Source of the DNA: Natronorubrum halophilum
GTDB taxonomy: Archaea > Halobacteriota > Halobacteria > Halobacteriales > Natrialbaceae
Direction: 5' to 3'
DNA length: 64,000 bases
Assembly: GCF_003670115.1 (NCBI RefSeq)
Contig: NZ_QQTY01000001.1
Location: 558,001 to 622,000, forward strand
Below, piece by piece: positions 42,430 to 53,122 of the stretch (the stretch's first letter is position 1; the number at the start of each line of letters is the position of its first letter). Below the pieces are notes generated by a model. It did no database searches, was not told where the DNA came from, and saw only the letters and a list, made by a program, of their open reading frames with translations. A program made the position numbers and the translations under genes.

Positions 42430-45400
42430 CTAATCTTCATCGTCAGGATTCTGGGGTCCGATGTCGGCATACTCATCACTCTCTACGGGTTCTTCCATTG
42501 CGACTGTCTCCCCATCGAGAGCATTTAACAGTGTACTGAATCCAATATCTTCACCGAACGCCGGGTCACCGGTGTTCGGCGGTGCACCTGTCTGCATCGG
42601 TATGAGTCCGGGCATAACGATCACGATCTCGAGGGAGGTATCGAACTCGATCGGTTCTACCTCGCCGATCTTTCGTTCAACACCGTCGCCGAAGTCAACG
42701 TCGACATCCATCCGATCGCGGACGTACGTCGTACTCTCACCGCCGGTTGGATCGCCCGCCGTCGCACTGATCTCGAAGCGGGAGTATTCACCGTTGATAT
42801 CGACGTTGTAGCTGTTCGCCTGTAAGACGTACAGCGCCGGTGGCCACGGAATGAGTGGTATTCCAGGTGTCGGGAGGCGCTGGGTGTATCTGGCTCCGAG
42901 CGTCGCGTGTTCTCCGTCGATGTCGTTGTCCATGACCGTAGAGTTCGGCGGACGAACCGACGCGACTTCGTCACCGCTGACCGTCTCAAGATCCATGTAC
43001 GTCGGCGAGCCGGAGACTTCGAACTGCATCTCCTCCATGAGATCCGATCCCTCGAGATTACCGCTCCGCTCCTCGACATCACCGGTGAAGATATCCTGAA
43101 TGAACCCGAGGGAGTCGTCGAGTGTGCTATCGCCACTGGACATCGCGCCGCCGACGTCGTCAACCGTCCCCTCGTGGAACTCGGTCAGTGCTTCGATTCG
43201 ATCGGTAAGAACGTCGAAGTATGCCCGTCGGACCTCCATCCGAATCAAGTCCGGAACGTTCTCGTACGACCCCGTCGCCATAACATCGTCCTCGACGCTC
43301 ACGACCTCGTCTTCGAGTTCGTTGAAGGGAGAATCGCCACTCAGGAACTCGAGCCGTTCGGCCGTAACTGGGTCCGTTTCTCTCTTGACGAGTGCGTTTA
43401 TCTCGTAGAGGTCGTCTCGTAGCCACGTCTCGAGTTCGCCCTCGTCGAGATCCGATCCGCTCTCGAGATCACTGAAGTCGTAGCTCGTCGAACTGGCTCC
43501 GTTGATCGAGTTTTCGATCGTGCTCTCGACCTCGTCCTCGGGGCTCTCGTTAGCGTCCGGAATATCGATGGTCGGTATCGAGTCGGTGATTCTGGCTTCG
43601 ATCTGGTCTTCGAGACTGTCAGCCGGATCGAGCGAGCCTATATCGAGCAACGTTTCGAGTGAATCGACGACGACGGGTTCGAAGTTATCGGGATCCGGGA
43701 GCCCCGCGATATCGCCACGCTCGTCGTACCCCTCCCCGCCCTCGAAATCGTCGTGAATTCTGCTCTCGGGGACCTCGAGATCGTCTACGAGATCGGCGTC
43801 GATATCAACCTCGGTGGAAACGGTTTGTGTTTCTGGAGATCGAACCTCGGTTTTCGTGTCGCTCCCGTTTTCCGTGGTGTTTTCGAAGAACGAGGTCTCC
43901 TGATACTCGAACTCGACGTCGATGCCGAGACTGTGGACGTCACGGTCGGAGTAGTCGCCCTGGGTGGTTTGCCAGTCTTGCGACAGCGAAACATCGACAT
44001 CCTCGAGAGTCTCGTACCTGTACTCCGAATACTCGTACGAATAGTTCTCCGGAGAATCGCTCCGATCTGTCGGGAGCGACCAGAACGACGTACTCGTCGT
44101 TCGATCGACGTCGATATCGTATACTCTATCGATGTACTCGTCTTCCATGGAACTACCGGCGAAACCCTCGTCGTAACCGATCGGTGACGCACTGCCATCG
44201 ATCTCGTCGGGATTCATCTCGCCGGGCAGCTCTTGCAGTTCGTCGGATAACGAGCCGACTCCGATCAGTTCGTAGTACGCGATATCCGCCATATCGTTCG
44301 GCGTAACCTCCTCTTTCGTCGTCAGTGGATCCATGTCGCCGAACATGCCGTCGATGATCTCGGCTAACGACGGTGCGTCGGGGAAGTCGCCGTCTTTGTC
44401 ACCGAAGATATACTCGCGAAAGTCGTTACAGACCGTCTCCTGGAGGTCCGGGTCATCGAAGTAATCGAACACCCCTGCATCCGCTTCGAGCTCTTCAAGC
44501 GCCGCGTCGTCTTCCGGCGTGAGAACAGCGGCGTGTGACTGGTCGACCGCAACCGTCTCCGAGTAATCCTCGTAGCCCTCGGTGAAGATTTCGAGCGTGA
44601 ACTCCGTCTGATCGTCCTCGAGATCGATCGATCCGTCGACGCTTTCTTCGTAGACGAGTCCGTCGTTCGTCCAGATGTGGACGTCTGCGCCTTCGATCGG
44701 CTCTCCGGACGAATCGTAGATGTCGATCGATCGATCCGTCGATGAAACGAGGCTGACCGTGAGACGGTCGTTCGTCTCGTCGAACTCGATACGCTGCTCG
44801 AATCGCTCGTGATCGTCTTTCACGACCACGACGTCGTACGTTCCCGGCTTGTCCAGTTCGAACGAGACGTCACCAGAGGCGTCCGTCTCCCCCCGACGTT
44901 CTCCGCCGACGGATACGGTTGCACCGCCTCCCTCCCCGACTGAGACCGTCGCCTCAAACGTATCCTCCCCGTCATCGTCACCACCGCCAGCCATTTCGTC
45001 GATCATATCCGCGGTGAGACACGCCCACGCTGGACGCATCACGCGGTCGGCGTACGGATCGACAGTACCGTCACCGAATACTTCCTTCTGGACACCGAAG
45101 ATTGCGTCATTCGCCATTACCTCCGTGTGATTGTGTTTAAGAATTTCGTCGAACGTCCATTCTTGCTGTTCTGTACCTCTCCCTGAATCCATTCGATTAA
45201 TGAACGATTTGAAGTACGCCATCGGATAGAGGCGCGCGGCCGTCTTGTGTGCCAAATTATCGAGATTGGACGGCTCACCTTCGAAGAAGCCTTCATTGAG
45301 ACTCTCGTTGAACTCCTGAGTCTTCTCCTGCAACTCGAGAATCGGCGTGCCGACGGTGACGGTGAGATCCTCGAACGTCCGCTCGCTGATGACCCGATCG

Positions 45401-45918
45401 TCGTTCTCAAGCGTGATCGTTACGTCCTCGAGAGAGACCTGGATCATGCCGTCGTCGGGGTGATCGATGTCGATCTCGTCGTCTGCATCGCCGACCGCGG
45501 TGGCGGGATCGCTGGAGAGACCGTCGACGGATACCGTCGTTTCGGCATCGCCGATCTCCTGCCCGGCGTTCGGCAGCGCTTCCTCCGCTTCCAGGTAGAT
45601 CAGGAGTTTGAGATACGTCTTGAATACCTCGTCGGGATCGCCATCGAGGGTATCCAGATCGGAGGTCATCAGGGGTTGTGCTGCGGCCTGGTGGGTCGCG
45701 GCGACGACGGCACCGCGGAGTTCGTTCTGGGCGGCCGACTCCGTCCGGTCCATCGCGAGCGTCTGATCGACGGAAGTCTCGGGCGTATCGCGTGACTCGA
45801 GCACACCGACGATCATAACGCTGCTAACCAGTAGCAATACGCCGATGATCGCGAAGGGAACTCGAGCGCGGTCGTCGATCGAAATCGTTTGTGGACGAGA
45901 TCCTGTCATGGGTTCCAC
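42430..45918 (-). CDS. Very large surface protein of the pilin-associated operon (DUF7286-like) with Ig-like inserts
   Basis: 1162 aa. One N-terminal TM (~20-42) tethers a giant acidic exterior part. Residues ~312-395 and ~396-470 are two Ig-like/carboxypeptidase-regulatory-like modules (RRGETDASGDVSFELDKPGT; SSGEPIEGADVHIWTNDG), flanked by single cysteines at ~300 and ~497. The rest is Asp/Glu-rich with repeated tyrosines. It resembles the DUF7286 family that accompanies haloarchaeal type IV-like pilus gene sets (number from memory). Last gene of the operon; its start overlaps the upstream stop by 13 nt. Confidence 0.72.
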   Translation of the reverse strand: MEPMTGSRPQTISIDDRARVPFAIIGVLLLVSSVMIVGVLESRDTPETSVDQTLAMDRTESAAQNELRGAVVAATHQAAAQPLMTSDLDTLDGDPDEVFKTYLKLLIYLEAEEALPNAGQEIGDAETTVSVDGLSSDPATAVGDADDEIDIDHPDDGMIQVSLEDVTITLENDDRVISERTFEDLTVTVGTPILELQEKTQEFNESLNEGFFEGEPSNLDNLAHKTAARLYPMAYFKSFINRMDSGRGTEQQEWTFDEILKHNHTEVMANDAIFGVQKEVFGDGTVDPYADRVMRPAWACLTADMIDEMAGGGDDDGEDTFEATVSVGEGGGATVSVGGERRGETDASGDVSFELDKPGTYDVVVVKDDHERFEQRIEFDETNDRLTVSLVSSTDRSIDIYDSSGEPIEGADVHIWTNDGLVYEESVDGSIDLEDDQTEFTLEIFTEGYEDYSETVAVDQSHAAVLTPEDDAALEELEADAGVFDYFDDPDLQETVCNDFREYIFGDKDGDFPDAPSLAEIIDGMFGDMDPLTTKEEVTPNDMADIAYYELIGVGSLSDELQELPGEMNPDEIDGSASPIGYDEGFAGSSMEDEYIDRVYDIDVDRTTSTSFWSLPTDRSDSPENYSYEYSEYRYETLEDVDVSLSQDWQTTQGDYSDRDVHSLGIDVEFEYQETSFFENTTENGSDTKTEVRSPETQTVSTEVDIDADLVDDLEVPESRIHDDFEGGEGYDERGDIAGLPDPDNFEPVVVDSLETLLDIGSLDPADSLEDQIEARITDSIPTIDIPDANESPEDEVESTIENSINGASSTSYDFSDLESGSDLDEGELETWLRDDLYEINALVKRETDPVTAERLEFLSGDSPFNELEDEVVSVEDDVMATGSYENVPDLIRMEVRRAYFDVLTDRIEALTEFHEGTVDDVGGAMSSGDSTLDDSLGFIQDIFTGDVEERSGNLEGSDLMEEMQFEVSGSPTYMDLETVSGDEVASVRPPNSTVMDNDIDGEHATLGARYTQRLPTPGIPLIPWPPALYVLQANSYNVDINGEYSRFEISATAGDPTGGESTTYVRDRMDVDVDFGDGVERKIGEVEPIEFDTSLEIVIVMPGLIPMQTGAPPNTGDPAFGEDIGFSTLLNALDGETVAMEEPVESDEYADIGPQNPDDED

Positions 45919-46868
45919 GTGTAAACCGTGATGTCGACATCGTCCGGCGAAACGGTCTTCTCGAAGTATGCTTCCAGTTCGTCCTCGTCGTCGCCGATTT
46001 CGTCGAGATCGTCGCCAATCCGGCCCGATTCGAGATCATCGCTGATCAGTTCACTGAGGCCGTCGACCAGAACGTCGTTTGCGTCGTCGGCCCGGGAATC
46101 GGTCCGCGCCAGCGGGGCTTCGTCTCGCTCGAGTTCGCTATCTTGACCGACGAGTTCGGCCATCTTCAGGTAGTGAGTCGTTTTGATGGCACGATCGAGT
46201 CGCTGTCTCTCGAGCGCCAGTTGCGACCGTTCGACCGGGAAGTACCCACGGACGATCGACCGAGCAATCGGTTCGGCGAGATCGTCGAGTTCCTCATCTT
46301 CAGCGTAGGCTTCGGCCAAATCCGAATCGTCGACGGCGGGCATTCCGCTCGAGGCGGTCATCGTGACAGCGTTCGTGTCCTCGGTCACCGGCGGCAGTCG
46401 ACCAACGGTGGCGTTTCCGCGGATCGACGAATCCACGTAGGGCCGCCAACTGGCGGTGATGTAGACGTGATGGTTCGAACCGACGAATTGGCCCTCAACG
46501 GTGGCGGCGACACTGTCGGCGAACGAATCGGCGTACGGGACCAGCCGTTCATCTTCGACCGTGGCATTGACGACCGCCGCTTCCGCGATCGTTCCGGCAG
46601 CGGGGCCGTACGTCGTCCGTTCGTAGCTCACGACGCCGTCCGGCTCTTCGTAGTGATCGCTCTCCGTGAGTGCCTCGAGATCGTACCCAACCGAGACCGT
46701 CGTGGCGCTGAGTGTTTCGGCGGTTCGATCCGCCTGATTGACCTCGAGGCCTTCTTCGGAGCTGCTGAGGTAGAAACCGATCACGAGTATGCTCGCGCTG
46801 ACCAATAGCAGCGCCAGCGTGATGTCGAGGACGGTGCTGACGCCCCGGTCCGATCTCACGGAGACCAC
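45906..46868 (-). CDS. Pilin-like protein (DUF7284-like)
   Basis: 320 aa. The N-terminus DRGVSTVLDITLALLLVSA is a class III (PibD-type) pilin signal: a charged leader, a G/V processing site and a hydrophobic alpha1 segment. The mature part is acidic, mostly helical in its second half. It would be extracted and assembled like an archaeal pilin or minor pilin. Overlaps both neighbours by 13 nt. Family match to DUF7284 is from memory. Confidence 0.75.
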   Translation of the reverse strand: MVSVRSDRGVSTVLDITLALLLVSASILVIGFYLSSSEEGLEVNQADRTAETLSATTVSVGYDLEALTESDHYEEPDGVVSYERTTYGPAAGTIAEAAVVNATVEDERLVPYADSFADSVAATVEGQFVGSNHHVYITASWRPYVDSSIRGNATVGRLPPVTEDTNAVTMTASSGMPAVDDSDLAEAYAEDEELDDLAEPIARSIVRGYFPVERSQLALERQRLDRAIKTTHYLKMAELVGQDSELERDEAPLARTDSRADDANDVLVDGLSELISDDLESGRIGDDLDEIGDDEDELEAYFEKTVSPDDVDITVYTWNP

Positions 46869-47332
46869 ACCTCCACGCGGAGAGTTCCACCGTGAACGTC
46901 ACCAGGGAGGTCGTCCTCGACGGGAACGGGGCGTTCTGCAACACCGGTTTCGATACCGGACCCACCTTCGGGAGGGCCTTCCTGTCCGGTCGCTCGAGTG
47001 CCGTCTGCCCCGAACTGTACTGCGGCGACGACCTCGACCTCACCATCGTCGTCGACCGTAGTGACCTCGACGTAGACGTTCTGTCCGTCCGGCAACGAGT
47101 CGCGTTCGATGTCATCCAGTCCGGTGTCTCGTTGGGTCGAAAAGACACCGTCGTGGGAAACGTCCTCCCAGATACGATCGATCGCGACGCCCTCCGGCGA
47201 GCGTCCGGAACGATCCGTGAGGACGTCGGTGAGGACTCCGCTGTAGAGACCGAGTGCGATCGCCATGACGATGACCGCGACGAGTGCCGCGATCGGTTCC
47301 GTCTGGGCCTTAGACGACGACCAGCGTGACAT
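46856..47332 (-). CDS. Pilin-like small protein (DUF7285-like)
   Basis: 158 aa from the ATG at 47332. The N-terminal KAQTEPIAALVAVIVMAIAL with upstream basic residues is pilin-like; the following 110 residues are a small acidic domain (DVYSGV-type strands not certain). It sits between the DUF7283-like and DUF7284-like genes with 23- and 13-nt overlaps, so translation is coupled. A longer frame to 47350 also exists. Confidence 0.72.
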   Translation of the reverse strand: MSRWSSSKAQTEPIAALVAVIVMAIALGLYSGVLTDVLTDRSGRSPEGVAIDRIWEDVSHDGVFSTQRDTGLDDIERDSLPDGQNVYVEVTTVDDDGEVEVVAAVQFGADGTRATGQEGPPEGGSGIETGVAERPVPVEDDLPGDVHGGTLRVEVWSP

Positions 47333-48377
47333 GGTATCTCCCCGTTTCATCGTTCAGTTCGATCCAGCCCAGTTCGTCTACGCGGTCGTCAGAAGCCGTA
47401 CCGCGTGGACAGAGTTCGTCCTCGTCGCCGGAGTAGTGAAGCGTCCCCTCACACGTGTGACCATCGAACTCAGCGGTTACGTCGAGCGGATAATCGCCGG
47501 CCCAGACGGGGTCATCCGTACCGCCGGAGATGTGTGATTGCATCGAGATCTCCCTGGTACCGGATCCGTGGTGCAACATCGGATCCCAACCGTCGGTGTC
47601 CACCGCGTGCGTTGGCTGGGTTTCGTCTTCTGGATCCCCCTCGTCGTCGCAGTCCGAAAGCCAGCAATCGGCTGCTTCGACCCAATCCGAAAACGTGTCT
47701 TCGACCTGTTCCCAGAACGAATCGGCGTCCTCGTACTCGTCCTCGATAACGGAATCACCCTCGACCGTATACTCAACGGCAGTATGTTCGTCAAAACCCT
47801 CATACTGGATGTGGATCGATTGCGGAACGGAGTGGGTATCGACAATGAGATCGACGGTTTCGTGAGATCCGCCCTCCGTACGAATACTCGTCATTTCGTC
47901 GGGTTCGACTGTAACTCGTCGAACTGTCAGATCGTCGGTTACCGGTAGCCATTCGTCGGCATTGGTCTCCTCGGCGTTTGCGACACGATCCATGAATACC
48001 GTCACCGCATCCTCGTGTGGATCGTCGATCTCTGATTCGAACTCCGTCTCGAAATCGCTGCCGTAGACGAGACGTTCGAGACGATCGTCGCCGTTGACGA
48101 CCACTACCTGGCCGTATCTGATGCTCGAGCGATCGGTTCCGTGTTCGTTGCGCATTTCGATCGTCTTCCCGTCGATTTTGATCGCCTCGGCATCGTGTCC
48201 GTAAGTCGAGGCCGCTTCGTAGGAGCTTCCGGATGTCCCTTCGACCGCGTTCGCCGCTCGATCAGCATCGGGCGGCGGCCCCGTCGGAAGCCCGAGAACG
48301 ACACCGACCATTGCGAGACTGATGATGCTGACTGCGAACCACACGTACCAGGCGTCAGCGGGGGCCTCCCAATCCAT
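47310..48377 (-). CDS. Single-TM acidic surface protein (DUF7283-like), first gene of the pilin-like operon
   Basis: 355 aa. It opens MDWEAPADAWYVWFAVSIIS with one TM at ~10-32 and no pilin-type processing site. The exterior region is rich in Asp/Glu and beta-strands, with two cysteine pairs (CWLSDC near ~240; CEG...CPRG near ~320) that could form disulfides. It is the promoter-proximal gene; a TATA box at 48400-48408 sits 27 nt upstream. Resembles DUF7283 (from memory). Confidence 0.72.
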   Translation of the reverse strand: MDWEAPADAWYVWFAVSIISLAMVGVVLGLPTGPPPDADRAANAVEGTSGSSYEAASTYGHDAEAIKIDGKTIEMRNEHGTDRSSIRYGQVVVVNGDDRLERLVYGSDFETEFESEIDDPHEDAVTVFMDRVANAEETNADEWLPVTDDLTVRRVTVEPDEMTSIRTEGGSHETVDLIVDTHSVPQSIHIQYEGFDEHTAVEYTVEGDSVIEDEYEDADSFWEQVEDTFSDWVEAADCWLSDCDDEGDPEDETQPTHAVDTDGWDPMLHHGSGTREISMQSHISGGTDDPVWAGDYPLDVTAEFDGHTCEGTLHYSGDEDELCPRGTASDDRVDELGWIELNDETGRYHVTLVVV

Positions 48378-48399
48378 ACCGAACGCTGCTGCGGGATCG

Positions 48400-48408
48400 T
48401 ATTTAAAC
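48400..48408 (-). promoter_or_regulatory. TATA box of the pilin-like operon
   Basis: The minus strand reads TTTAAATAC, centred about 27 nt before the ATG at 48377, giving a leaderless four-gene transcript. Confidence 0.55.
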
Positions 48409-48506
48409 TACAGCGTGGTTCTGAGAGGCGTGTTCGTCCGGAAGTACCGATCGTCAACGGGCAACGATCTACCGTCGGATGGCACTATCCAGACTAGCGG
48501 AGATAC

Positions 48507-48520
48507 CTCCACGAGTGGAG
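48507..48520. repeat. 14-bp palindrome in the divergent pilin-operon/crtB intergenic region
   Basis: CTCCAC-GA-GTGGAG, about 35-50 nt before the crtB TATA box. A second inverted pair, CACCC (48534-48538) and GGGTG (48550-48554), abuts that TATA box. Possible operators for one or both promoters. Confidence 0.4.
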
Positions 48521-48554
48521 ATCCTTCACGAACCACCCTACTAGTGAGGGGGTG

Positions 48555-48564
48555 CTATTTTATG
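48555..48564 (+). promoter_or_regulatory. TATA box of crtB
   Basis: CTATTTTATG, predicting a transcript start near 48586 and a leader of about 33 nt to the ATG at 48619, which is preceded by a GAGG Shine-Dalgarno at 48609-48612. Confidence 0.5.
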
Positions 48565-48618
48565 TGCATCTGTCGTACGAAATACATCCCAGAGTGTCAG
48601 CAGGGCACGAGGAAAAGA

Positions 48619-49569
48619 ATGCAACAGGAACAGATAAACGCGGGCAAAGCGATCCAGAAGCGAACCGGAAAGACGTTTTATCTCGCGACGAGGTTCCTTC
48701 CGGAACGCGTTCGCCACGCCACGCACGTTCTCTATGCGTTCTTCCGAATCGCCGACGAGATCGTCGACGACGCCGACGGTATTCCCCCGGACGAACAGCG
48801 GGCCGAACTCGAGGCGCTTCGGACCCAGGCTATCGGCGAAACCGATCCCGATGGTCCCGTTCTCGAGGCGTTCAACGAACTCCGACGGGAGTACGACATC
48901 ACTGACGAAGAGATCAACACGTTCGTCGCCGCGATGCGGTCGGATATCGACACCGACCGCTACGAGACCTACGACGACCTCGAGTCGTACATGCGCGGCT
49001 CGGCGGCCGCCGTCGGCGTGATGATGACCGCCATTATGGATCCCGAGGACCGGGCGGCAGCGCTCCCTCACGCCATCAAACTCGGCGAAGCGTTCCAGAT
49101 GACGAACTTCCTTCGAGACGTCCGCGAAGACGTTATCGAGCGCGACCGGATCTATCTGCCACAGAAGACGCTCAACGCACATGGCGTCTCGACCGCACAG
49201 ATCGAACGCCTCGAGTATTCGGAATCGTTCGCAGCGGCGATGAGCGCGGAACTCAAACGAACGGAAGCTCTCTATCGGGAGGGCGTCGCCGGCATTCGCT
49301 ATCTTCCCGAGGATTGTCAGCTTCCCGTACTGCTTGCGAGTGTTCTCTATGCGGAACACCACACGGTGATTCGGAGCCGGGAGTACGACGTCCTCAGCCG
49401 TGAGCCGACCCTCTCGACGGCCCGAAAACTGTGGTGTCTCGCAAAAACTCGCTGGCACTGGCACTGGAACCGGGATCCCGAAGCCGTCTTCCGTCGCGTC
49501 TCCGCGGTGCCCGCGCTCGAGAGGGACCGGCACGGACCCGGACACGGCGGTCGCGTGCCGACGCAGTGA
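48619..49569 (+). CDS. crtB: Phytoene/squalene synthase CrtB
   Basis: 316 aa from the ATG at 48619, chosen for the GAGG ribosome-binding site (48609-48612) and family N-termini. Two Asp-rich diphosphate-binding motifs are present: RIADEIVDDADG and LRDVREDVIERDR. It condenses two geranylgeranyl diphosphates to phytoene, the first committed step to carotenoids; squalene synthase activity is the alternative. A further upstream ATG at 48561 would be too close to the TATA box. The crtD-lyeJ-cruF genes lie opposite, close by. Confidence 0.9.
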   Translation: MQQEQINAGKAIQKRTGKTFYLATRFLPERVRHATHVLYAFFRIADEIVDDADGIPPDEQRAELEALRTQAIGETDPDGPVLEAFNELRREYDITDEEINTFVAAMRSDIDTDRYETYDDLESYMRGSAAAVGVMMTAIMDPEDRAAALPHAIKLGEAFQMTNFLRDVREDVIERDRIYLPQKTLNAHGVSTAQIERLEYSESFAAAMSAELKRTEALYREGVAGIRYLPEDCQLPVLLASVLYAEHHTVIRSREYDVLSREPTLSTARKLWCLAKTRWHWHWNRDPEAVFRRVSAVPALERDRHGPGHGGRVPTQ

Positions 49570-49600
49570 CCAGGACTCGAGCCGAGACGGAGGACCGACG

Positions 49601-49762
49601 TCACTCCGAGACGTCTTCTTCGCTCAGCATGTCGGTTTCGGTAACGACGAACTTCGCTAACGTTTGTTTGGTGTGCATCGCGACGAGGTGGTTCTCGAGG
49701 GTCTGGCCGCCTTTGATGTCCACGTGACAAAGCGGACATTCGACCGGGATTCTGGTCGCCAT
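49601..49762 (-). CDS. C2H2-like zinc-finger micro-protein (53 aa)
   Basis: From the ATG at 49762. CPLCHVDIKGGQTLENHLVAMH fits C-x2-C-x12-H-x4-H, one C2H2-like finger, in a 53-residue protein ending in an acidic tail. It lies in the gap between convergent crtB and the carotenoid operon, downstream of cruF by 94 nt. Function unknown; possibly regulatory. Confidence 0.75.
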   Translation of the reverse strand: MATRIPVECPLCHVDIKGGQTLENHLVAMHTKQTLAKFVVTETDMLSEEDVSE

Positions 49763-49856
49763 GCTCCCAACAGAATGCACACGAGCAAAAGATTGCAGCA
49801 AGCATGTTCGTCCCGCTATCGAGAGTCGTTCGCGGGTCCTGGAGCCCTTTCACCGT

Positions 49857-50741
49857 TCAGGAGTCACGACCGCCGATTCCGCTCGAGGGGAGGACTCGGC
49901 GGACCATCTCTCGGTCGTAGCGGTCGGTCCGGAACAGGCCGAGACAGAACAGGACGGCGACGCCGGCAGCCAGCCAGTTGCCGTAGAGGACGTTGATGGT
50001 CCCCCAGAGTAGGAGGAAGCTCACCAGATCGTCGAGGATAAACTCGCAGGTTCGAACGCGCTCGAGCAGCGACTCGCGGTCGAATGCGAGGTCGACGAAC
50101 ACGACGGCAACGGTGCCCGAAATGAGCCAGCCGACGTAGTTCGAGAGCGGGACGCCGTAGTAGCCGCCCGCGGGGACGAACGCCCAGAAGCCGATGGCGA
50201 CCGCGGCGGGATCGAGCACGAGGTCGATCGCAACGACGGCCCCGATCGCGGTGAGAACCCTTCGGAGAGTGCTTTCGCTCCGATTCTCGAGGACGAGCAA
50301 CGTGAACAGGTAGGCGTTCATCACCAGCGGGATGAAAAACAGCGGAAGGGCCAGCGGAACCGCACCGAACAGCATCGGTCCGAGCTGGATGGCGTACTCG
50401 AAGGTACCGTACGGCCAGCCCGTTCGAACGCCGACGACTTCGATCGCGTAGGTGTACGCCGTCAGCGCGCCCAGACAGCCGAGCGCCCGCCAGCCGATTC
50501 GCGGGAGCACCCCGACGAGCAACGGCGAGCGCATCACCACCGTGCCGAAGAGAACGAACAGCGGGTTGTACGCCAGCGGATCGGGCAAAAGCCCCTCCGC
50601 GCTCGCGACCAGCGTCACCGCGCCGACGAACGGAAAGACGACCGCGATCGTGAACCGATTCTCGCGAATGACCGCCTCGAGGCGTCGCTGGACGGCCGCT
50701 CGCGTCGTGACGGCGCTCGGTGGGGAATGTCGGTTATCCAT
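49857..50741 (-). CDS. cruF: CruF-type carotenoid hydratase (bisanhydrobacterioruberin hydratase)
   Basis: 294 aa with about seven or eight TM segments. WPYGTFEYAIQLGPMLFGAVPLALPLFF and LVLDPAAVAIGFWAFVPAGGYYGVP are the conserved stretches of the CruF family, which in Haloarcula adds water to the C50 end groups as the last step to bacterioruberin. It follows lyeJ with an 8-nt overlap in the crtD-lyeJ-cruF order. Confidence 0.9.
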   Translation of the reverse strand: MDNRHSPPSAVTTRAAVQRRLEAVIRENRFTIAVVFPFVGAVTLVASAEGLLPDPLAYNPLFVLFGTVVMRSPLLVGVLPRIGWRALGCLGALTAYTYAIEVVGVRTGWPYGTFEYAIQLGPMLFGAVPLALPLFFIPLVMNAYLFTLLVLENRSESTLRRVLTAIGAVVAIDLVLDPAAVAIGFWAFVPAGGYYGVPLSNYVGWLISGTVAVVFVDLAFDRESLLERVRTCEFILDDLVSFLLLWGTINVLYGNWLAAGVAVLFCLGLFRTDRYDREMVRRVLPSSGIGGRDS

Positions 50742-51606
50742 GGATCAGTCTCCAGAGCCCGCCCATCGTCAGGACCGCCCCGACGAGCGTGTTGATCGCC
50801 GGGAACCACCAGTACGCGCGGTCGACGGCGACGCTCGAGGTGACGATTGCCGCGACGAGTCCGGGATAGACGAGCATAAGCGCGCCGAGTCGAGGATCGA
50901 GCACGCCGAACGCGACGACGCTCGCGAGCCAGCAGCCGCCGCAGTAGGCGTACGTTCGACGCTCGCCGAGCGTCGTCGCGGTCGTTTCGATCCCCGTTTC
51001 TCGGTCGGGTTCGATGTCGGGGATCGCCGAAAAGGTGTGCATGCCCATCGCCCAGAGCCAGCCGCCGAGGACGGCGATCAGGGGCGTCTGGCTTCCGGCA
51101 ACGGCGGCGTAGGCTGCCCCGGCCGGCGTGATGTAGAGACCGTTCGAGATCGAGTCCAACAGCGGCGTGGTCTTGAATCTGATCGGCGGCGCGCTGTAGG
51201 CTGCCCCGAGGAGGAGAAACGCGGCGATCCAGGGCCACGCCGCCGTCGGAACGAACGGGACCAACACGAGCGGGAGGAGCGCACAGATCGTCACGGCGAC
51301 CGGAACGACGGACTGTCCGCCATAGCGGGCCTCCTTCGCGTCCTTCTTCGGGTTCGCGGCGTCTATCTCGCGGTCGTAGACGTCGTTGATGCCGTAGAGG
51401 AAGACGTTCGCCGGCACGAGGAAGTAGCCGAACAGGAGTATCGCCGCGGGGGCGAACAGTTCGCTCACGGTGTCGGCGGCGTAGGCGACGCCGACGAGAA
51501 CCGGACCCGCCAGATAGAACCAGAACCGCGGCCGCGAGAGCGTCAGCAGGTACGAGAGCTGTTCGCCGAGGCTCTCGTCGTCCGTCGGTGTTGGACTCGC
51601 ACTCAT
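50734..51606 (-). CDS. lyeJ: LyeJ: lycopene elongase/hydratase (UbiA prenyltransferase)
   Basis: 290 aa with about eight TM segments. The UbiA-family Asp-rich motifs NDVYDREID (res 74-82) and DIEPDRETG (~res 185) bind the prenyl diphosphate and Mg. In haloarchaea LyeJ adds C5 isoprene units and water to lycopene ends toward C50 carotenoids. Order crtD-lyeJ-cruF with a 19-nt gap to crtD supports this over a menaquinone-type UbiA. Confidence 0.92.
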   Translation of the reverse strand: MSASPTPTDDESLGEQLSYLLTLSRPRFWFYLAGPVLVGVAYAADTVSELFAPAAILLFGYFLVPANVFLYGINDVYDREIDAANPKKDAKEARYGGQSVVPVAVTICALLPLVLVPFVPTAAWPWIAAFLLLGAAYSAPPIRFKTTPLLDSISNGLYITPAGAAYAAVAGSQTPLIAVLGGWLWAMGMHTFSAIPDIEPDRETGIETTATTLGERRTYAYCGGCWLASVVAFGVLDPRLGALMLVYPGLVAAIVTSSVAVDRAYWWFPAINTLVGAVLTMGGLWRLIHG

Positions 51607-51625
51607 CGTTGTGAGCTGTCGGCGG

Positions 51626-53122
51626 TCACGGCTCCGGGGACCGTCCGTAATCCTCGAGGACCTTTTCGGCGGTCAGTTCACCGCTGATGAGACACATCGG
51701 GACGCCGATACCGGGCGTGGTGTCGCCACCGACGAAGTAGAGGCCGTCGTCTTCCCTCGAGCGGTGGGGCGGCCGGAAGAGCGACGTCTGGCGGAGCGTG
51801 TGAGCCAGTCCGAGCGCCGTTCCCTCGTAGCTGTTGTACCGGTCGGCGAAGTCCTCGATACAGAATCGCTCCTCGAGGACGATCCGGTCGCGGAGATCGG
51901 TACCGGTGTTGGCGGCGATGTCTTCGAGGATCTGGTCGCGGTATTCTTCGCGGATTTCGGGGGTATCCTTGAGTCCGGGGGCGACGGGGACGAGGACGAA
52001 CAGCGCACTGTGTCCCGCTGGCGCGACGTCCTCGTCCGTCCTGGAGGGCACACAGAGGTAGTATGCGGGCTCGTCGGGCCACTGTGGATCCTCGAAGATC
52101 TGCTCGAAGTGGGTCTCCCAGTTGGTCGGGAGGACGAGCGAGTGGTGGGCCAGTTCGTCAACCGTGCCCTCGACGCCGAGGTACAGCAAGAACGCGGAGG
52201 GCGCGTACGTCCGCTCGTCCCAGTAGGCGGCGTCGTAGCCGCGCCGTTCGGGCGGGAGCAGGTCCTGTTCAGTGTGGGCGTAATCGGCGTTGCTGACCAC
52301 GAGATCCGGTCGAAGGGGACCAGTCGACGTTTCGACGAGGAACGCACCCTCGCGGCCCTTGATCGCCGTCGCTGGACGATCGGTGTCGTACTCGACGCCC
52401 AGTTCGCGACCGAGTTCCTCGAACGCGTCGATGACGGCACCGATTCCGCCTTCGGGGTACCAGACGCCGAGGTTGAAATCGACGTGGCTCATCAGGTTGT
52501 ACAGCGCCGGCGTGTTCGTCGGCGAACCGCCCAGAAAGACCAGCGTGTACTGCATGATCTGCTGGAGTTTCGGGTGGTCGAAGTAGTTCTCGACGTGCCC
52601 TTGCATCGACCCCAGCAGGGAGAGGCCGCGAGCCTGGCGGGCCACGTCCAGATCGATGTAGTCCCGCAGTCGGGTGCGGTCCTCGTAGACGAAGTGTTCC
52701 ATCCCAACCTCGTAGTTCTCGCGTGACTTCTCGAGGTAGCGCTCGAGGGCGTCGCCGGCACCGGTTTCGTACTCCTCGAAGACGGCCTTCGTTCGCTCGA
52801 GATCGGGCGTCACATCGACCCGATCTCCGTCCTTGAAGAACAGTCGGTAGTGCGGATCGAGATGCGTCAGTTCGTAGTAGTCGGTTGGCGTCCGGTCGAA
52901 ATCGGCGAAAAATCGCTCGAAGACATCGGGCATGAGGTACCACGACGGCCCCATGTCGAACCGGAAGCCGTCTTTCTCGAGGCGACTCGCTCGGCCGCCG
53001 AGTTGTTCGTTCTGCTCGATAACTCGAACGTCGGCGCCCGCGTCGGCGAGGTAACAGGCCGTCGAGAGGCCGCCGACGCCGGCACCGATCACGACGACGG
53101 ACTCACCGGCCAGCGATTGCAT
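51626..53122 (-). CDS. crtD: Carotenoid 3,4-desaturase CrtD (phytoene-desaturase family)
   Basis: 498 aa. The FAD-binding GAGVGGLSTACYLADAGADV (~res 13-32) is followed by the GGRA region (LGGRASRLEKDGFRFDMGPS), and the C-terminal GGDTTPGIGVPMCLISGE is the second FAD signature. In the bacterioruberin path CrtD introduces the 3,4 double bonds. TATA-like CTGTTAAAC at 53146-53154 starts a leaderless crtD-lyeJ-cruF transcript. Confidence 0.9.
   Translation of the reverse strand: MQSLAGESVVVIGAGVGGLSTACYLADAGADVRVIEQNEQLGGRASRLEKDGFRFDMGPSWYLMPDVFERFFADFDRTPTDYYELTHLDPHYRLFFKDGDRVDVTPDLERTKAVFEEYETGAGDALERYLEKSRENYEVGMEHFVYEDRTRLRDYIDLDVARQARGLSLLGSMQGHVENYFDHPKLQQIMQYTLVFLGGSPTNTPALYNLMSHVDFNLGVWYPEGGIGAVIDAFEELGRELGVEYDTDRPATAIKGREGAFLVETSTGPLRPDLVVSNADYAHTEQDLLPPERRGYDAAYWDERTYAPSAFLLYLGVEGTVDELAHHSLVLPTNWETHFEQIFEDPQWPDEPAYYLCVPSRTDEDVAPAGHSALFVLVPVAPGLKDTPEIREEYRDQILEDIAANTGTDLRDRIVLEERFCIEDFADRYNSYEGTALGLAHTLRQTSLFRPPHRSREDDGLYFVGGDTTPGIGVPMCLISGELTAEKVLEDYGRSPEP

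Follow-up and report, generated by a model that had tools for sequence, protein, structure and literature searches.

Four overlapping genes of Natronorubrum halophilum encode pilin-like and large surface proteins with no secretion motor beside them, which raises the question of which machine, if any, assembles their products. The stretch of DNA analysed (64,000 nt, C1:558001-622000; the window) was described in an earlier note, from the letters alone, as carrying relatives of DUF7283 to DUF7286 under one promoter. Pfam assigns these four families no function, and their names were not found in the open-access papers that were searched.

The operon, its products and its setting

All four open reading frames are intact on the minus strand and are transcribed in the order DUF7283 (47310..48377, 355 aa), DUF7285 (46856..47332, 158 aa), DUF7284 (45906..46868, 320 aa) and DUF7286 (42430..45909, 1159 aa). 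In a Pfam profile search each protein scored well over the cut-off of its own family (PF23954 with 168 bits, PF23956 with 100 bits, PF23955 with 268 bits and PF23957 with 378 bits, respectively), which confirms the family identities proposed before. The four overlapping genes lie where the earlier note had placed them, with overlaps of 23, 13 and 13 nt if DUF7286 is started at GTG 45918. The ATG at 45909 is the more likely start because relatives begin there, and it would leave a 4-nt ATGA overlap with DUF7284. The giant last protein was correctly recognised as having a single transmembrane segment, and its length is probably 1159 aa instead of the 1162 aa given.

The one TATA box that had been claimed (TTTAAATA, 48400..48407, minus strand, read as 48407-48400) is found about 30 nt ahead of the DUF7283 ATG, a spacing that would fit a leaderless transcript. 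It is kept in two relatives, N. texcoconense (L089) and Haloterrigena salina (L090), where AGTTTAAATAC is identical to the window and the remaining upstream DNA has diverged.

Each of the four proteins has one hydrophobic segment close to the N-terminus. The two class III pilin-like N-termini of the earlier note were recovered in DUF7285 (SKA|QTEP) and DUF7284 (RG|VST); the motifs were judged by eye and are conserved in alignments of relatives, from which the DUF7285 start was also taken. DUF7285 is a candidate small pilin. The standard class-III motif was not found, again by eye, in the N-termini of DUF7283 or DUF7286. DUF7283 has a single N-terminal transmembrane segment, is the only copy in the genome and adjoins TadC in relatives. 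DUF7286, also encoded by a single-copy gene, is acidic (25% D+E), with the N-terminal transmembrane segment followed by a large acidic portion that is predicted to lie outside the cell. Profile comparisons gave no ground for paralogy within the cassette (DUF7284/DUF7285, DUF7285/DUF7283 and DUF7286/DUF7284, all <8% probability), and a Pfam search admitting E values up to 1 gave no TadE match for the subunits tested, which may still be distantly related to TadE.

Structural models were of unequal quality. The AlphaFold2 model of DUF7284 (pLDDT 90) has an alpha/beta fold unlike the usual pilin head and had no Foldseek match in the PDB at E 0.001 or better; its likeness to ribosomal protein S3 (best alignments, Z about 6) looks like a common arrangement and was set aside. 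The DUF7286 model is moderate (pLDDT 69). Between two conserved cysteines DUF7286 carries an insert of ~145 aa (44538..44973, minus strand, approximate limits), modelled as two small beta-sandwiches of PEGA/CarboxypepD_reg-like type, with a Pfam PEGA match of 28.3 bits (cut-off 20.8). Within the model, residues 316-457 gave alignments with Ig-like and prealbumin-like domains at Z 5-7, from which an adhesive role of DUF7286 may be guessed. The insert, with its PEGA/CarboxypepD_reg matches, is present in three of 40 members, all of the subfamily formed by the window, L089 and L090. Solved structures gave no convincing match, by sequence or by fold, to DUF7284, nor to DUF7286 outside the insert.

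N. texcoconense (L089) and H. salina (L090) share the gene order of the window locus. One flank of the operon holds an ArgZ-like enzyme and a PQQ-repeat protein in all three, and the other a squalene/phytoene synthase, a carotenoid biosynthesis protein, a UbiA prenyltransferase and an amine-oxidase-family enzyme that is likely a phytoene desaturase. In the window this carotenoid cluster (48322-53122; the carotenoid biosynthesis protein matches Caroten_synth) lies immediately upstream of the operon. With a window protein as query, no relative was found in viral contigs, and a viral origin was rejected. Two other genomes (G012, G067) retain only the C-terminus of DUF7286, as would be expected if the cassette were the decaying relic of a lost system. 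This is very improbable for the window because all four genes are conserved intact; the TATA box is conserved too, gene order is kept over the whole locus in two genera, whose proteins are about 50-78% identical, and an intact motor is encoded elsewhere in the genome, as described below.

Motor genes: beside the cassette in relatives, on contig C4 in the window genome

Forty haloarchaeal DUF7286 loci were inspected, each over up to 20 kb. In 26 of them the cassette has genes for a PilB/TadA-like ATPase and for a TadC-like platform as neighbours, which bears out the neighbourhood that had been described as normal for these genes. The usual order, mostly in a single operon, is TadA-TadC-DUF7283-DUF7285-DUF7284-DUF7286; in many loci it comes after a HerA-like gene, and in Natrinema a MinD-DUF7125 gene follows. 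A cetZ gene is placed divergently beside the ATPase in many loci; the three ORFs that were scanned matched CetZ_C and Tubulin, which confirms the assignment. In L066, L069, L070, L108 and L110, which have no motor near, cetZ adjoins the DUF cassette, and in L160, L161, L164 and L165 it adjoins the motor instead.

A pilB2/C2 regulon adjacent to cetZ2 has been published in haloarchaea, with the remark that Natrialbales typically have a pilB2 'not contained within a regulon', or no pilB2, and that the cetZ association is absent there (PMC9856176). The full operon fits this PilB2-C2 regulon, on the basis of the cetZ adjacency and the remark on Natrialbales, and the earlier suggestion of an undescribed surface complex is not supported.

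In a genome-wide PF00437 search no PilB-like ATPase was found within hundreds of kb of the cassette. The absence of a motor beside it, as first reported, holds, and extends to the DNA just outside the window, where a motor ATPase and platform gene in the same operon had been named as the finding that would speak against the earlier reading. The search gave four hits (C1:1108560, C1:1212079, C2:381939 and C4:164299), which comprise an archaellum-type ATPase (NF058587, 881 bits), a PilB3-type ATPase on C2 with a platform gene, the C4 gene, and a weaker, distant gene on C1.

The C4 ATPase, which matches PF00437, and its platform neighbour (about 163465-167088, L010) belong to the family that adjoins the cassette in other species, so that the distant motor supposed by the earlier note has a matching pair on another contig. 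The genome has one TadC of this cognate family. T2SSF was matched by 10 of 22 members of the platform family, the C4 member on its own giving no match, and comparison with a PilC3/ArlJ profile, of two sequences only, revealed no direct link. The platform assignment draws on the T2SSF matches. The order at C4 is HerA-TadA-TadC, a gap of 76 bp, and then MinD. Because Natrinema relatives hold the four genes between TadC and MinD, the cassette is missing from this place on C4 and stands in the window instead. A prepilin peptidase (PF06847, 39.4 bits, cut-off 29.9) is encoded at C4:424504; together with the class-III prepilin signal peptides recognised by eye, it gives the genome two features of archaeal type IV pili. 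A plasmid-borne motor, suggested by a 77% match to a Haloterrigena plasmid, was not adopted for contig C4.

Two accompanying genes were also observed. The MinD-like gene (L010:11165-12556; likewise L107:14322-15740) encodes a ParA/MinD domain fused to DUF7125 (KaiC-like) and might serve to position the pilus machinery. A small HerA-like ATPase (L010:5171-6229) lies just upstream of the pilus ATPase, as in many relatives.

Joint retention, splitting and exchange

The TadC platform and DUF7286 were sought in 194 genomes of the class. Both are present in 146 and neither in 42, as raw counts with kinship ignored. DUF7286 without TadC occurs in five: C-terminal remnants (G012, G067), a fragment with a stop codon (G056), a weak match (G125) and one clean exception (G045). 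TadC without DUF7286 occurs in one, where the match is weak. Genera g2, g3, g5 and g11 each mix members having both halves with members having neither.

The operon is interrupted at different points, namely after TadC (the window genome and several siblings), after DUF7283 (L153, L155, L156) and after DUF7285 (L157, L158). In 16 split cases the halves lie on separate contigs or 174-2024 kb apart; these cases were picked for having both halves, so what carries weight is how few genomes have a single half. On the TadC tree seven changes are needed to account for the split state, and well-supported branches force at least three of these. The operon has repeatedly come apart, with both halves usually kept, and as far as these genome sequences indicate, the cassette is tied to one specific motor by co-retention despite the broken operon.

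The clean exception, G045 (97% complete), keeps DUF7285-7284-7286 (C1:1485838-1489014; L066, L179) and has no TadC of the cognate family. Only three PF00437 ATPases were found in it, none near the cassette within the 20 kb read. This genome offers a natural test of whether the cassette can do without its motor.

Outside the haloarchaea, DUF7286 is also matched in families of the phylum that are probably methanogenic, and DUF7285- and DUF7284-like genes lie nearby in several of them. Their PF00437 genes are mostly distant: G216 and G396 have them about 20-25 kb away, and in the remaining cases that can be judged on one contig the distance is >80 kb. The window is therefore not alone in having a cassette with no motor next to it. 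In loci L170-L177, all with distant DUF7284/7285/7286 relatives from probable methanogens, no PilB was found in the 20 kb read, and in L170 these relatives adjoin a second cluster of pilin-like genes. Because of G045 and the methanogen relatives far from PilB, the cassette may sometimes dispense with its cognate motor, and the C4-type motor may not be needed in every case.

Two alternatives draw on these exceptions. The general adhesion-pilus motor PilB3-C3, and not the C4 pair, might power the cassette: a pair of this type is present on C2 of the window genome and could serve instead, which counts against C4 as the only motor; in Haloferax, PilB3-C3 rescues in trans the defect in adhesion that is caused by deleting pilB1-C1 (PMC6491452); and G045 combines the cassette with a long PilB3-type ATPase (1226-aa frame). 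We regard this as unlikely, since the cassette is kept together with the cognate TadC in 146 of the 194 genomes and missing together with it in 42, and since the TadA4-TadC4 pair is its neighbour in intact operons. Alternatively, the four proteins might form a surface membrane complex that is independent of any motor and needs no filament assembly, as the position of the methanogen DUF7285-7284-7286 relatives far from PilB in most genomes checked, the missing standard motif in DUF7286 and DUF7283 and the alpha/beta fold of the DUF7284 model could suggest. The prepilin N-termini on two of the four proteins and the retention of the motor genes in the same genomes after the operon break make such a complex improbable.

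Motor and cassette differ in their histories. The C4 platform protein groups with those of Natronorubrum siblings (85% identity to N. texcoconense), and the window DUF7286 falls in a clade with those of a Haloterrigena-like genome and of set L089 in N. texcoconense, separate from the set that other Natronorubrum genomes have. N. texcoconense has two cassettes (L089, L111) and one TadC of the cognate family. These trees are compatible with cassette exchange, or with duplication followed by differential loss. It is possible, and we propose it tentatively, that one PilB2-C2 motor serves exchangeable cassettes, the motor being inherited with the lineage and the cassettes swapped or doubled. If so, the surface structure could change without a change of machine, and strains with one motor and two cassettes would allow a direct test of the pilin-set exchange proposed from comparative genomics.

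Proposed assembly and comparison with known systems

The sequences directly support the identity of the genes, their usual operon in relatives, the presence of one cognate motor and one cassette in the genome, and the co-retention of split halves. From these we consider it quite probable that the window genes are the pilin and surface cassette of a PilB2-C2 type IV pilus-like system that has been split, and that the C4 motor assembles this cassette in trans; trans assembly, filament formation and adhesion are what we infer. DUF7285 and DUF7284 would be prepilin-like subunits processed by the prepilin peptidase, DUF7283 a small membrane-anchored component, and DUF7286 a giant membrane-anchored surface protein, probably the exposed adhesive part. 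After prepilin processing, the C4 TadA/PilB2-like ATPase and TadC/PilC2-like platform would assemble the cassette in trans. The minor-pilin tip and the surface sensor of the earlier note are candidate roles.

A paper on archaeal type IV pili has already made the case for motors working on pilins that are encoded in trans (PMC4858521), and the new points are modest: the repeated splitting, one motor with two cassettes, and the Ig-like insert in DUF7286. The co-retention links four Pfam families without assigned function to one specific motor, and a cassette elsewhere in the genome offers an explanation for the PilB2 often lying outside a regulon in Natrialbales.

Among the closest known systems is the PilB2-C2 regulon by cetZ2 of Haloferax volcanii (PMC9856176), which likewise has an ATPase and a TadC-like platform together with a number of pilin-like genes and a single predicted surface protein, and whose cetZ divergently adjoins the operon in many relatives' loci. 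The DUF families occur in H. volcanii as well. The window genome shares the DUF gene order and has the cognate ATPase and platform, but its genes do not form a single operon (window on C1, motor on C4); the cassette is split from ATPase and platform and stands beside carotenoid genes, and no cetZ was found beside it or anywhere in the window. We therefore speak of a split variant rather than a standard member, because motor and cassette are on different contigs. The pil-2 locus of Halobacterium salinarum (OE1347R-OE1332R) is a haloarchaea-only pilB2-pilC2 transcript of seven ORFs with three prepilin genes, its pilC2 carrying an in-frame stop (PMC4292770). Gene count and order fit the usual operon, and membership is judged from these, not from sequence; it is one continuous transcript there, in contrast to the two loci of the window genome.

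The bacterial Tad pilus resembles the system in its TadA-like ATPase, T2SSF-type platform, nearby MinD/TadZ-like ATPase and pilin-like subunits, but the window genome has one platform gene, followed after 76 bp by MinD, and not TadB plus TadC. A link to Haloferax pilB1-C1 (hvo_0620) was rejected: in two Haloferax-like genomes (G076, G189) about 107-122 kb separate the published primer site from the platform gene linked to DUF7286, so that the site marks a different locus. The PilB3-C3/PilA adhesion pili of Haloferax are alike in that motor and pilins are encoded in trans, and differ in using other ATPase and platform families and other pilins (PilA).
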